64,000 nt of DNA, taken from Perognathus longimembris pacificus (Eukaryota; Chordata; Mammalia; Rodentia; Heteromyidae). Positions 10,876-63,833 of this stretch are shown one piece after another (position 1 is the stretch's first letter; each line of letters starts with the position of its first letter). The notes beneath the pieces are model-generated. The model was not told where the DNA came from, ran no database searches, and saw nothing but the letters and a program-made list of their open reading frames with translations. Location: positions 70,646,767-70,710,766 of the forward strand of contig NC_063161.1 in assembly GCF_023159225.1 (NCBI RefSeq), written 5' to 3'. Made by a program: the position numbers and the translations under genes.

Positions 10876-15556
<4,681 letters not shown>

Positions 15557-54636: not shown

Positions 54637-54739
54637 TTCCCTTCCCTTTCCTTTCCTTTCCTTTCCTTCCCTTCCCTTCCCTTCCCTTCCCTTCCCTTCC
54701 CTTCCCTTCCCTTCCCTTCCCTTCCCTTCCCTTCCCTTC

Positions 54740-54786
<47 letters not shown>

Positions 54787-57930: not shown

Positions 57931-58124
57931 CATATAAAATATCTCATTTATATATCATTAGAGGTTCACCAAAATCTGAGTAATGGTTGATCACATGAGG
58001 CAGTCTGTCTTGGGGAAATTACTTTCCCCTGGATTGAACTGTTTGCTTAATGTCTCATGGTAGCTCTTTGCCATTCCAGTGACCAGGCCTCAGGCTCTGT
58101 CCAGCACAGAGCCGGTCTTCTCAG

Positions 58125-58558
58125 TGTTGTGCCATGTCGCGAGACGACCACCAAGAAGGCCACCGAGACTCAGACGTTCCGAAATGCAAAAGCAAGGCAA
58201 GACTTTATTCAAGCGGGGCCGCGGCCCAGGCCTCGTCCTACCTACCGACACAGGGGAGGTTAGGAGCCAGCCTCGAGCTGCGATTACACAGAGCTTATAA
58301 AGGCAAAAACAAAGTTACAGCATCAGGTGTTCAAGCAAGCAAGATTAGGACACAGGTACAAATCTGATAGGGCTCGAGGCATTCTAGGGGTGGTTAGAAT
58401 TAAGCATTCCCAGCGGTTAGAGTTCTTGACCGGCTGGGCCCTAATAAGCTTGCCCTGGGTCTGCTCACAGGGCCTGCTTGTCTCAGGTTCATGTGGTAAA
58501 GTAGGGTTCGCGCGGTAGTGCGGTAAAGTGGGGCCTGACTTCAAAGTCTGGCACTTCA
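58125..58558 (-). repeat. 3' LTR of the older provirus
   Basis: 434 bp, TGAAGTGCC...CACAACA- type ends on minus (the last bases of U5 are diverged). TATA-like TTTATAAG near 58297 and AATAAAG near 58205 on minus mark the U3/R features. Confidence 0.85.
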
Positions 58559-59168
58559 TTTCCCCTTTTTTTCTTTGGTACCTTGGGAGCCAATCATGGC
58601 TCCATTCTGTCCATTTCAATGGATTGCCTGTCTAGGGGATGATATAGAGATAAGGCATGGGCCAATAGGGCCCAAAGTAGTAACCAAAGGGCCTGTCACC
58701 ATTTCTCACAAGTACAGTCTCTGTACCTCTGTTTTGCATGCCTCTAGTTTATCCTGCCTCATCTTCCCAAAAACAACTCTGGTCCCTCCGTTTTAAAGGG
58801 GGGCTGATGGGTGAAGATCATCCATCTTCTGTAACTTCTTCAGGCTGATTCAGGGGCGTTGACCTTACCTAGCCAGCAAGCTATAACCTTAGTCTACTTT
58901 ATCAAGGGACTGCACACATCAAACTGGACAGGACTCCTGCTCATCACACTCAGGAAGTCGCTTATTCAGGTTCGGATCCAAGTGATCTGGAACATCCCAG
59001 TTGCCTGTGGCCAGATCACATAAGTAAGTCTGGCCACCAGGTTCCTAAGGGGGCTTCCTTAGTTGCTAAAATAAGGGGGTCACCCCACTTTGGAGTGAGC
59101 TGCCAAAATAACATCAACATTAGCCAGGGTAGCAAGGAAAGAAGGCAAAAAGAAAATTATAACAATAT

Positions 59169-60718
59169 TCAGTCTAACTTTCTTTTCTTGAGGCGAAGGC
59201 GAAGCGGCTGAGTCGGGTGCTTGGAGACCTCCCATGTTCCACCACAGTAGTCGTCGTCCAGGGCAAAGGGGTCAGCTAGCCTGGTGTGGGAGCAATGGAC
59301 CCAAGTGGCGATGCCGTCTACCTTGAGGGCAGTGGGAGTAGTCAGTAGCACTACATAGGGTCCCTTCCACCGTGGTTCTAAGGATTTGGGGTTATGCCTC
59401 CAGACGAGCACCCAGTCCCCTGGTCTGAATAAATGGGGGCTAGAGACAGAAGCAGAATCATATAATGCCTTAAGCTGGGGCCACATATTCTTGTGCATGA
59501 GCTGCAAATAATCAAGTTTACATAAAAATTCAGCATATCCAAATCAGCAAGCAATTCAGTCTGAAGGCTAGGGATAATGGGTGGGGGGTACCCGTACATT
59601 ATTTCAAAAGGAGTAAAGCCAAGCTGATAGGGAGAATTTCTTCCTCTAAGCAGAGCAAAAGGAAGGAGTGACACCCAGTCTGCGCCAGTCTCTAAGGCCA
59701 ATTTAGTTAAGGTCTCTTTTAGAGTCCGATTCATTCTCTCTACCTGTCCTGAACTCTGGGGTCTATAAGTACAATGCAATTTCCAATCCGTCCCCAGTGC
59801 AGCAGCTATTCCCTAACTTACTTTTGAGATGAAGGCCGGTCCGTTGTCCGACCCAATGGTGGATGGGAAGCCATACCTGGGTAGGATTTCTTCCAGGATC
59901 CTCTTAGCCACTACATTTGCGGTCTCATGCTTTGTTGGATAAGCTTCAACCCATCCTGAAAAGGTGTCTACAAAAAACTAGCAAATATTTGTATCCAAAT
60001 CTTCCAGGTTTAATTTCTGTGAAATCTACTTCCCAATACATGCCTGGCCTATCCCCACGGAGGCGAGCTCCTTTAGTAACTTGTTGATTGGGGGCATTGG
60101 TGAGCTGACAGGCCTTGCAATTTTTAACAATATCTTCAATAAGTTGATCTCCTTGTCTAATTTTCACTTTGGAGTGTCGGAGCAAGTCCTGCATTCTTCG
60201 GGTTCCCATGTGAGAAGCTCGGTGGATTCTCTTAAGAATCCCCTTACCCAGCCCTTGTGGCAAGATAAGTTTCCCTTCACAAGTTTTCTACCAGTCATTG
60301 TTTCCTTCTCTGTTCGGGGTTTTGTGGGCCATGGGATTTTTCTTCATCCACTCCAAGTCTTCTTGGGAATACTGGGGCACAGGAGGCAAAGCTCGTGGCT
60401 CTGGGTCTACTAGAGTCAATACTTCTCTGGGCTGAAGGGCTGTTTCCTTAGCTGCCTGGTCAGTCAGATTATTCCCTCTAGTCACCGAATCAACTCCCTT
60501 TTGATGACCCGGACAGTGCATAATGGCAATCTTTGCTGGGGCCCATAGGGCCCGGATGAGGCTTAAAATCTCCTGCTTGTTTCTAATGGCCTTTCCTTCG
60601 GCTGTCAGTAGCCCCCTCTCTTGGTATTCATGTCAAGTAGGCCTAAGGCAGGAGCTTCCAGAAGGCTTTTCTAGATTGCCTCAAAGGCTTTTTGCATCTG
60701 CTCAGTCCAATGAAATTC
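59169..60718 (-). pseudogene. Gammaretroviral pol remnant: RT end, RNase H, integrase
   Basis: In minus order: the reverse transcriptase connection piece (to about 60640), the RNase H C-terminal part with HCPGHQ (60521-60288), the integrase zinc-binding N domain with CKACQ (60263-59946), the catalytic core (an SDNGP-type second Asp near 59850; third acidic residue in GQVERMN) and the C-terminal SH3-like domain (GDWV, WKGPYVV) to the stop at 59169. The frame is broken by a shift near 59507-59530 and by stops near 59815 and 60280. An internal deletion brings RT close to RNase H. It cannot encode a working polymerase. Confidence 0.88.
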
Positions 60719-60740
60719 TTGGAGGCATTCTAGGGGTGGT

Positions 60741-61047
60741 TGTTGTGCCAAGTCGCAAGACCACCCCCAAGAAGACCACTGAGATTCAGACACTCCGAAA
60801 TGCAAAAGCAAGGCAAGGCTTTATTTAACGAGCTGCCAACTCGGGCCTCGTCCTACCCACCGACACAGCGGAGGTTAGGAGGAAGCCCCGAGCTGTGATC
60901 ACACAGGGCTTATAAAGGCAAAGAACAAGATTACAACAATCACCTGTGCAAGCAAGATTAGAACACAGGTACAAATCTGATTGGCTCAGGGTTCGATTCT
61001 AAAATGGGTTCATGTGGTGGGGCCTGACTTCAAAGTCTGGCACCTCA
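60741..61047 (-). repeat. 3' LTR of the young provirus
   Basis: 307 bp. Against 63354-63661 I count two substitutions and one single-base indel. TTTATAAG near 60920 (minus) and AATAAAG near 60825 (minus) serve as TATA and poly(A) signals. Confidence 0.9.
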
Positions 61048-61414
61048 TTTCCCCCTTTTTCTTTTTGGTACCTTGGGAGCCAATCATGGCTCCATTCTGT
61101 CCATTTCAATGGCTTGCATGTCTAGGGGATGATATAGAGGTAAGGCATGGGCCAGTAGGGCCAAAAGTAGTATCCGAAAATAACTCTGGTCCCTCGGTTT
61201 TAAAGGGGGGCTGATGGGTGAAGATCATCCATCTTCTGTAATTTCTTCAGGCTGACTCGGGGGCGTTGACCTTACCTAGCCAGGAACCTATAACCTTAGT
61301 CTACTTTACCAAGGGACTGCAGGATTCACCTCACTTTGGAGTGAGCTGCCAAAATAACATTAACACTAGCCAGGGTAGTAAGGAAAGAAGGCAAAAAGAA
61401 AATTATAACAATAT

Positions 61415-61612
61415 TCAGTCTAACTTTCTTTTCTTGAGGCGAAGGCGAAGCGGCTGAGTTGGGTGCTTGGAGACCTCCCATGTTCCATCACGGTAGTTGT
61501 CATCCAGGGCAAAGGGGTCAGCTGGCCTGGCGTGGAAGCAATGAACCCAAGTGGTGATGCCATCTAGGGTCCCTTCCACCGTGGTTAATCTGTTGATTGG
61601 GGGCATTGGCAA
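61415..61612 (-). pseudogene. Integrase C-terminal fragment in the young provirus
   Basis: Matches the end of the older copy's integrase, then jumps at about 61568-61588 to sequence that in the older copy lies near 60085. This shows an internal deletion of most of integrase. Not functional. Confidence 0.85.
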
Positions 61613-61624
61613 GCTGACAGGCCT

Positions 61625-63000
61625 TTAACAGATCTCAATAAGGACACAACACAATCTCAGGTCTACAAGCTTTCTTTCCTAAACAGATGTATCAGCTTAA
61701 AATTCTTACTGCCAGTCAGGGCTTTGAGTAAATGTGGGGGGTGAGATTTTAATCTATCCTCTCATTTGACAAACTTACCCTTACTTAACCACTATCACAG
61801 ATGACTGGTAAATTCCTGCCCAGTAGACAGACATGGGCATTGGAAAGGCATGCTTATGAACTATTCTTCTAGGACTTCCCAGCTTTGATTAACTTTTGAA
61901 AGGCCAAATAGGAGTGACTCTAGGATCTGACACCATCTCTGCCATCCAAGCAGCGGCTTACTGCCTCTGGATGCTCCATCACTTTTGTCCCAGGAGGAGT
62001 GACTTTCGACTTGGACTCAGGGCCTGAGTGCTGTCCCTCAGCTCTCCAGCTCAAGACTAGCACCCTACCACTTTTGAGCTCCACACCACTCCGTTCCCAG
62101 CACTCTGCTGGCTGATTAGAGACAAGTCTCTCACAGGGACCTTTCTTTGCCTGGGCTGGCTTTGAACCGCAGATTCAGACCAATGAGTCTTATAAGGGGC
62201 CACTTTACTCCAATTATAAGCAACAAGGTGGTCCACACAGAAGTAGTTTTTAAGCATGCTCTCTTACCTGGAACTTATTAAGGGTCAGTATTAGATCTTG
62301 ACAAACTTGTAGGAATCACCTGTGCTTCTCTGTGGGCCTGCTGGAAACTGTTACAAAAAACCTACAAAGAAGCTGGAATGGCAATTAAACATTTTGGTAG
62401 CCATAATTCTCCTTTTCTCACTTTGCAATAATTATTTAGGACAATTTTACTTCCAAATTTCTTATCTAGAAATGTATTCTTGATTTCCAAAGCCTTTCTA
62501 ACACTAACACAACACTTTAGCTTTTATCTGCATCGGAAAAACTGAAGCTCACAGGCAATCTGAAACCAGGTGCCGCCCTTTGCTTACGGGCTGCTTGTTT
62601 CAAAAGAGCCTCTTTCTTTTTTTCAGTCCCAGTTACTGCATGGCATGAAGACCTTTGAATTTAAACTTAGTTTTGCATCATACTGCAGTCTTGAACATGT
62701 TCACACTCACACATGCACACACACATACATTTTCAAAAGATCTTAAAGCGCGCTGAATAAGCATTGGCCATACATTTTCAAGTCCAGGGGAGTGGAAGGA
62801 ACGTTCCCCATCATCCGTTTGTCAGTCAGGCACAGTGCAAGAAAGAAACTCACAAAAATGAGCTATCTCCTTAACCTCCCTCCAGTGAGCTAGGATCAAG
62901 TCTAGGGGGCTAGATGGAGGTCCTCAAGATAGAACGTTATCCATAGCTCTGATCAGATGTAATACAAAAGGAGGAAAACACACAGGCCTAAGAAAAGCTA
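61625..63000. other. Non-coding interior of the young provirus
   Basis: About 1.4 kb with no long ORF and no gag-like motif that I recognise. It occupies the place of gag-pro-RT. It includes a SINE-like piece (62010-62180) and a short CA-rich tract near 62705. Origin unknown. Confidence 0.5.
62010..62180 (-). repeat. Type B SINE-like piece inside the young provirus
   Basis: 'ggactcagggcctgagtgct' to 'gcctgggctggctttgaacc' matches the type B tail and head in minus orientation. Confidence 0.6.
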
Positions 63001-63011
63001 CGAGTTGGAGA

Positions 63012-63190
63012 TCTCCCAAGCTGGCCCACAACCTCCTACAAGGGTGCAGAAGGAATGGACCCGAGTTGGCCCACAACCTCCTGCAAGAAGGAGTGGACCC
63101 GAGTTGGCCCACAACCTCCTGCAAGGGTGCAGAAGGAGTGGACCCGAGTTGGCCCACAACCTCCTGCCAGATAAGCAGAAGGAGCAGACC
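63012..63190 (-). repeat. Tandem repeat in the proviral leader
   Basis: Four copies of a unit built on 'gttggcccacaacctcctgc' plus 'gcagaaggagtggacccga', with units of about 33-45 bp because one copy lacks the internal 'gggtgca' piece. It lies 3' of the primer site in proviral orientation. Confidence 0.85.
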
Positions 63191-63333
63191 CAAGTACAAG
63201 GTGGGCGGGTTGAGTCTCGTTTAGGAGGCCCTCCTGGTCAGTTCCGGCCAAAAACCAAACTGACTCGCGCCCTACAAGTATAAGCCGCTGTTTTCTTACC
63301 TTCGGAGTCTGGGATCTCGGGGTCTCTGGGGCT

Positions 63334-63351
63334 ATCCCGGACGAGCCCCCA
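63334..63351 (-). other. Retroviral primer binding site, tRNA-Pro type
   Basis: On minus the 18 bases begin TGGGGGCTCG and end CCGGGAT, two bases inside the 5' LTR. This is the proline-tRNA primer site used by many gammaretroviruses. Confidence 0.9.
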
Positions 63352-63353
63352 AA

Positions 63354-63661
63354 TGTTGTGCCAAGTCGCAAGACCACCCCCAAGAAGACCACCGAGATTC
63401 AGACACTCCGAAATGCAAAAGCAAGGCAAGGCTTTATTTAACGAGCTGCCAACTCGGGCCTCGTCCTACCCACCGACACAGCGGAGGTTAGGAGGAAGCC
63501 CCGAGCTGTGATCACACAGGGCTTATAAAGGCAAAGAACAAGATTACAACAATCACCTGTGCAAGCAAGATTAGAACACAGGTACAAATCTGATTGGCTC
63601 AGGGTTCGATTCTAAAATGGGGTTCACGTGGTGGGGCCTGACTTCAAAGTCTGGCACCTCA
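63354..63661 (-). repeat. 5' LTR of the young provirus
   Basis: 308 bp, begins TGAGGTGCC and ends CACAACA on minus. Pairs with 60741-61047. Confidence 0.9.
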
Positions 63662-63822
63662 GTGGTTAGAGTTGAGCATTCCCAGGGGTTAGAGTTCTTG
63701 ACTGGCTGGGCCCTAATAAGCTTGCCCTGGGTCTGCTTACAGGGCCTGCTTATCTCAGGTTCACGTGGTAAAGTAGGGTTCACGTGGTAAAGTGGGGCCT
63801 GACTTCAAAGTCTGGCACTTCA
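63662..63822 (-). repeat. U3 remnant of the older 5' LTR
   Basis: Continues the older LTR from the GTGGT duplication onward. It aligns to 58390-58558 of the 3' LTR with about seven to nine substitutions and one 8-bp gap. Confidence 0.82.
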
Positions 63823-63833
63823 CTCAGGAGCAC

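Follow-up and report, generated by a model that had tools for sequence, protein, structure and literature searches.

Proviruses that lie within other proviruses have been described at the sequence level, and the mouse nonagouti allele provides a close parallel, in which an ERV beta4 element resides within a VL30 provirus, with target site duplications of 4 bp around the outer and 6 bp around the inner element (PMC6677723). The allele shares with our locus the arrangement of a provirus inside a provirus with direct duplications at both levels, and differs from it in that the inserted element is a beta4 and a phenotype results (PMC6677723). At the locus analyzed here, by comparison, both elements are of the ERV1 type, the target is the U3 region of an LTR, both duplications are 5 bases long, and the insertion is not known to cause a phenotype. 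The second parallel is methodological: REANNOTATE orders nested elements and dates them by their LTR pairs (PMC2672092). We follow the same logic, with nesting giving the insertion order and LTR-pair divergence the relative age, whereas REANNOTATE works from RepeatMasker output and leaves the duplications unchecked, and at our locus they were checked (PMC2672092). The locus is an ordinary case of nested ERV1-type endogenous retroviruses, and nesting of this sort is unremarkable in animal genomes. It serves as a clean example in which two insertions are ordered by nesting without any clock, and it leaves the understanding of retroviral integration unchanged.

The window, that is, the whole stretch of 64,000 nucleotides that was analyzed (G000:C1:70646767-70710766), consists of A, C, G, and T throughout with no N, and it lies in a genome of 2.2 Gb. 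Both proviruses lie on the minus strand. The outer provirus is bounded by CTCAG on both sides (58120-58124 and 63823-63827). Its complete 3' LTR of 434 bases (58125-58558) starts with TG and ends with CA, and adjoins an internal remnant of about 2.2 kb (58559-60725) carrying integrase (zinc-binding, core, and MLVIN_C domains) and the end of RNase H, while the 3' part of the remnant has no Pfam match. The remnant ends at a deletion junction (60722-60725), where a 4-base GAGG is common to the relatives' sequence and the LTR, so these four bases could be assigned to either pol or the LTR. A proximal U3 piece of the outer 5' LTR (60722-60740) is identical at 19 of 19 bases to 58376-58394, has no further site in the window on either strand, and ends with GTGGT, the left copy of the inner duplication (60736-60740). 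The inner provirus (60741-63661, 2,921 bases) is composed of a 3' LTR of 307 bases (60741-61047), an internal region of 2,306 bases (61048-63353), and a 5' LTR of 308 bases (63354-63661). Beyond it lies the distal U3 remnant of the outer 5' LTR (63662-63822), colinear with 58390-58558 and made up of the right copy of GTGGT (63662-63666) plus 156 more bases. The older LTR continues on both sides of the inner element, with 19 bases on the left and 161 on the right sharing the 5-base duplication. The coordinates and letters given in the preliminary description hold, as do both flanking duplications and the colinear continuation of the older LTR that it had reported, and base by base the nested arrangement reads as it had stated.

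The orientation of the two elements was assigned from the sequences next to the LTRs. An 18-mer resembling a primer-binding site (63334-63351, minus strand), which we take to be of the tRNA-Pro type, lies two bases from the right inner LTR. Next to both left LTRs is a pyrimidine run, equivalent to a purine tract on the minus strand. The LTRs on the right are thus at the 5' end, which puts the inner insertion in U3 of the older 5' LTR, where the preliminary description had placed it. Within U3, the inner element lies upstream of the position that corresponds to a presumed TATA-like motif that the intact left LTR has near 58295. The primer-site-like stretch next to the 5' LTRs varies at one base among 15 copies (flanks of L010-L068); the sequence before the 5' LTR is ACCCCAAA in 11 of the 15 copies and CCCCCAAA in the other 4, and the window has CCCCCAAA. 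A tRNA scan found none.

The inner element has the parts of a provirus, namely paired TG...CA LTRs, the GTGGT duplication, the primer-binding-site-like sequence by the 5' LTR, and the purine tract by the 3' LTR. Its two LTRs differ by 2 transitions over 307 sites plus a 1-base gap, a divergence of 0.65% that is near the approximately 0.7% first estimated, and both substitutions fall at CpG positions variable across the family. Three bases are common to the two inner LTRs and absent from all 28 of the other inner-type copies, which amount to 22 distinct sequences. In five further inner-type pairs the two LTRs have 0 differences, which indicates that the inner pair of the window is not among the youngest. 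Outside the window, the inner LTR is matched at 97-99% by 38 further places among those listed (the 40 scored from 871 candidates), and neighboring inner-type LTR pairs lie, start to start, 2.9-3.6 kb apart in five cases and 6.2 kb apart in one. The internal region holds a weak match to MLVIN_C (the integrase end), a SINE-like segment, a tandem-repeat leader, and segments without Pfam match. Since the SINE-like segment (~62010-62168) lies between the same neighbors in the same order in other copies (e.g. L047, L059, L063, and L068), it belongs to the family and did not insert here later; it was apparently captured by the family before the family spread. The same segment (62010-62168) resembles many places in the window, and the leader region (62998-63171) contains tandem repeats of 38/83 bases.

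The pairing of the outer LTRs requires more caution. Only 175 sites can be compared between them, with 9 differences (5.1%) and one 8-base gap; CpG positions account for five of the nine differences, and both states are present in other rows at four of the nine. Over the same stretch, the left outer LTR differs from the other rows at 5-24 sites, and of the 38 other LTR rows, which represent 36 distinct places, 19 match it as closely as its own partner does; the pair is therefore not proven by LTR similarity on its own. One base is common to the left LTR and the right remnant and absent from all 38 of these rows. Because the partner is no closer than half of the rows, the outer pairing rests on the CTCAG duplication together with this shared base; the outer element thus presents paired LTRs and a duplication, with its 5' LTR surviving only as a U3 remnant.

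These properties also bear on the ages. The outer provirus is older than the inner one by virtue of the nesting itself, and the 5.1% outer divergence matches the roughly 5% initially reported, but the numerical contrast drawn between the two pairs is weaker than claimed. The difference between inner and outer divergence gives a Fisher p of 0.0025 (95% intervals, 0.08-2.3% for the inner and 2.4-9.5% for the outer pair); the outer 5% is nevertheless a weak clock, given the 175 sites, the CpG share, and the half of the rows that are equally close. Substitution rates of 2-5e-9 per site per year, assumed here in t = K/2s, would place the inner insertion at about 0.7-1.7 My and the outer at about 5-14 My, and less when CpG sites are left out. 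Furthermore, the 208 bases beside the left LTR show 1 mismatch to one relative, which is below the expectation from a 5% LTR divergence. The short, CpG-affected LTR remnant illustrates how LTR divergence alone can mislead.

A mosaic origin of the left LTR was considered, since the best relatives of the outer element's internal pieces share 98-99.5% identity with them and those of the left LTR at most 92%. Nine relatives were chosen by the 208 internal bases, and the LTR and these 208 bases were compared in 12 rows, comprising six of the nine relatives, five LTR-chosen copies, and the window; L070, L073, and L076 were left out, as their LTRs match incompletely. The median distance was 0.068 for the LTR and 0.019 for the internal segment. 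With the window and six other LTR-chosen copies holding both segments, the medians were 0.061 and 0.050, and the LTR was more distant than the internal segment in 8 of 21 pairs. The contrast shrinks in the LTR-chosen copies and is therefore largely a selection effect. A mosaic left LTR or LTR reshuffling is unsupported with the LTR farther in just 8 of 21 pairs, and no mosaic is needed.

To place the duplications in context, flanks were fetched for 57 LTR copies, which are the best-scoring of larger candidate lists and not a random sample. Solo-like copies carry a duplication in 15 of 21 cases (11 of 4 bases and 4 of 5 bases, with lengths of 4-6 looked for), and none was seen in the flanks of the other 6. 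As a control, mismatched flanks of different copies agree in 6 of 420 comparisons. All five inner-type LTR pairs with both LTRs fetched have a duplication (four of 4 bases, one of 5); a sixth nearby inner-type pair on C1 stands outside this count. Both duplications in the window are 5 bases long, and in the family as examined, 4 bases (15 copies) are commoner than 5 (5 copies). A single LTR family with duplications of either 4 or 5 bases is seen, and no 6-base duplication occurs among the copies examined. Across the 57 sampled copies (114 flanks of 120 bases), another LTR of the family lies in the flank of 4. In two of them (L012 and L061), the second LTR starts within two bases of the LTR edge, as insertion into an LTR predicts, although no other half of the target was found, or it lay outside the view. 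In L037 and L048, the second family LTR is 27-48 bases off and in the opposite orientation.

A feature that had escaped the preliminary description is the loss of 251 of the 434 bases of the outer 5' LTR together with the stretch between LTR and pol. When 60560-60740 was searched against the genome, the full 181 bases were matched by the window only, among the 40 places scored from 761 candidates. Matches at the remaining 39 end at positions 159-170 of the 181, and 37 of them at 165-166, corresponding to 60724-60725; the join of pol to U3 is found only here among the 40 scored. In five fetched relatives, GAGG is followed by a different sequence with no match in the window, and in the intact left LTR the bases preceding the same GAGG differ, which together indicate that the RNase H region and U3 were brought together by a deletion. 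This junction is separated by 15-19 bases from the inner element and by 10-14 from the inner duplication, which is intact. The window has one exact occurrence of the primer-site 18-mer, within the inner element, and none in the outer element, whose own primer site presumably went with the deletion. If the gene order was the usual one, gag and upstream pol were probably deleted as well.

Two successive retroviral integrations and one deletion very probably account for the locus, a reading that supports the earlier interpretation with a weaker clock and one added deletion. In this scenario, a gammaretrovirus-like (ERV1-type) provirus would have entered the minus strand at a host site without a second copy, duplicating CTCAG. 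Later, a short relative, apparently non-autonomous, would have integrated in the same orientation into U3 of the outer 5' LTR, duplicating GTGGT; both duplications would reflect staggered cutting by integrase. A deletion, before or after the inner insertion and with the 4-base GAGG match at its ends, may have arisen by end-joining. It would have removed the outer primer site, U5, R, and proximal U3, and presumably gag and upstream pol, stopping just before the inner element.

The uniqueness of the locus was assessed by genome search. The 23-mer spanning the nested junction has its exact match only here, with 3 other places at 3 mismatches and 1 match for the reversed control, and each host flank matches the window alone, with no second copy found. 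A composite shared with or amplified at other places was rejected, as neither the exact nested junction nor, among the 40 scored of 761, the pol-U3 join recurs. An improbable alternative is that two neighboring proviruses or LTRs of one family were fused by a deletion at 60722, so that the left LTR and the right remnant would never have been parts of one provirus. The outer pair is indeed as divergent as typical family copies, the right remnant does hold a deletion end, and some internal pieces are nearer to other copies than the LTRs are; the last of these contrasts, however, is gone with LTR-chosen copies (LTR farther in 8 of 21 pairs). CTCAG moreover stands exactly at both outer LTR ends, where mismatched flanks agree in 6 of 420, and one base is limited to the left and right LTR (0 of 38 other rows).

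A misjoin of a relative's provirus into the LTR during assembly is less probable still. The family is highly repeated, with 4,720 and 871 first-look candidates, which would favor such an error, but the join carries an exact 5-base duplication, certain bases are limited to the two inner LTRs, no second copy of either host flank was found, and the window is free of N. We give the least credence to recombination or gene conversion between LTRs, in place of integration, as the event that brought the two LTR types side by side. A single BLAST hit (63354-63822, 77.8%) does align the right inner LTR together with the outer remnant to the left LTR, yet 9 gaps are opened in this hit, and neither side of the inner unit is incomplete: it has LTR ends of its own, a purine tract, the primer-site-like 18-mer, and a duplication, a form shared by five other paired inner-type proviruses with duplications.

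The classification of both elements was derived from a Pfam search of 19 of the 23 stop-to-stop pieces on the minus strand that reach 50 residues or more; the four omitted lie in or across LTRs. The outer element matches RNase H (below the curated cut-off), the integrase zinc-binding and core domains, and the MLV integrase C-terminal domain (MLVIN_C, PF18697, 7.2e-32). In the inner element, the end of MLVIN_C is the sole match in the pieces searched, at 7.3e-05 and below the curated cut-off. Neither env nor reverse transcriptase gave a Pfam match in these 19 pieces. With an MLV-type integrase C-terminal domain, both elements are ERV1-type, gammaretrovirus-like relatives. They resemble ERV1 or gammaretrovirus-like endogenous retroviruses in MLVIN_C, weak in the inner element, and presumably also in a tRNA-Pro-type primer site, and depart from them in the shortness of the inner element and the missing 5' part of the outer. 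It is possible, though we hold it tentatively and consider it rather doubtful, that this locus is part of a large ERV1-type system with recent activity, in which the proteins of relatives move short, SINE-carrying non-autonomous elements and one integrase lineage leaves duplications of either 4 or 5 bases.

Elsewhere in the window, 84-base tandem units occupy 10933-11580, a pattern that we take to resemble C2H2 zinc-finger genes, and a TTCCC array of 21 copies with 98% matches lies at 54637-54741.
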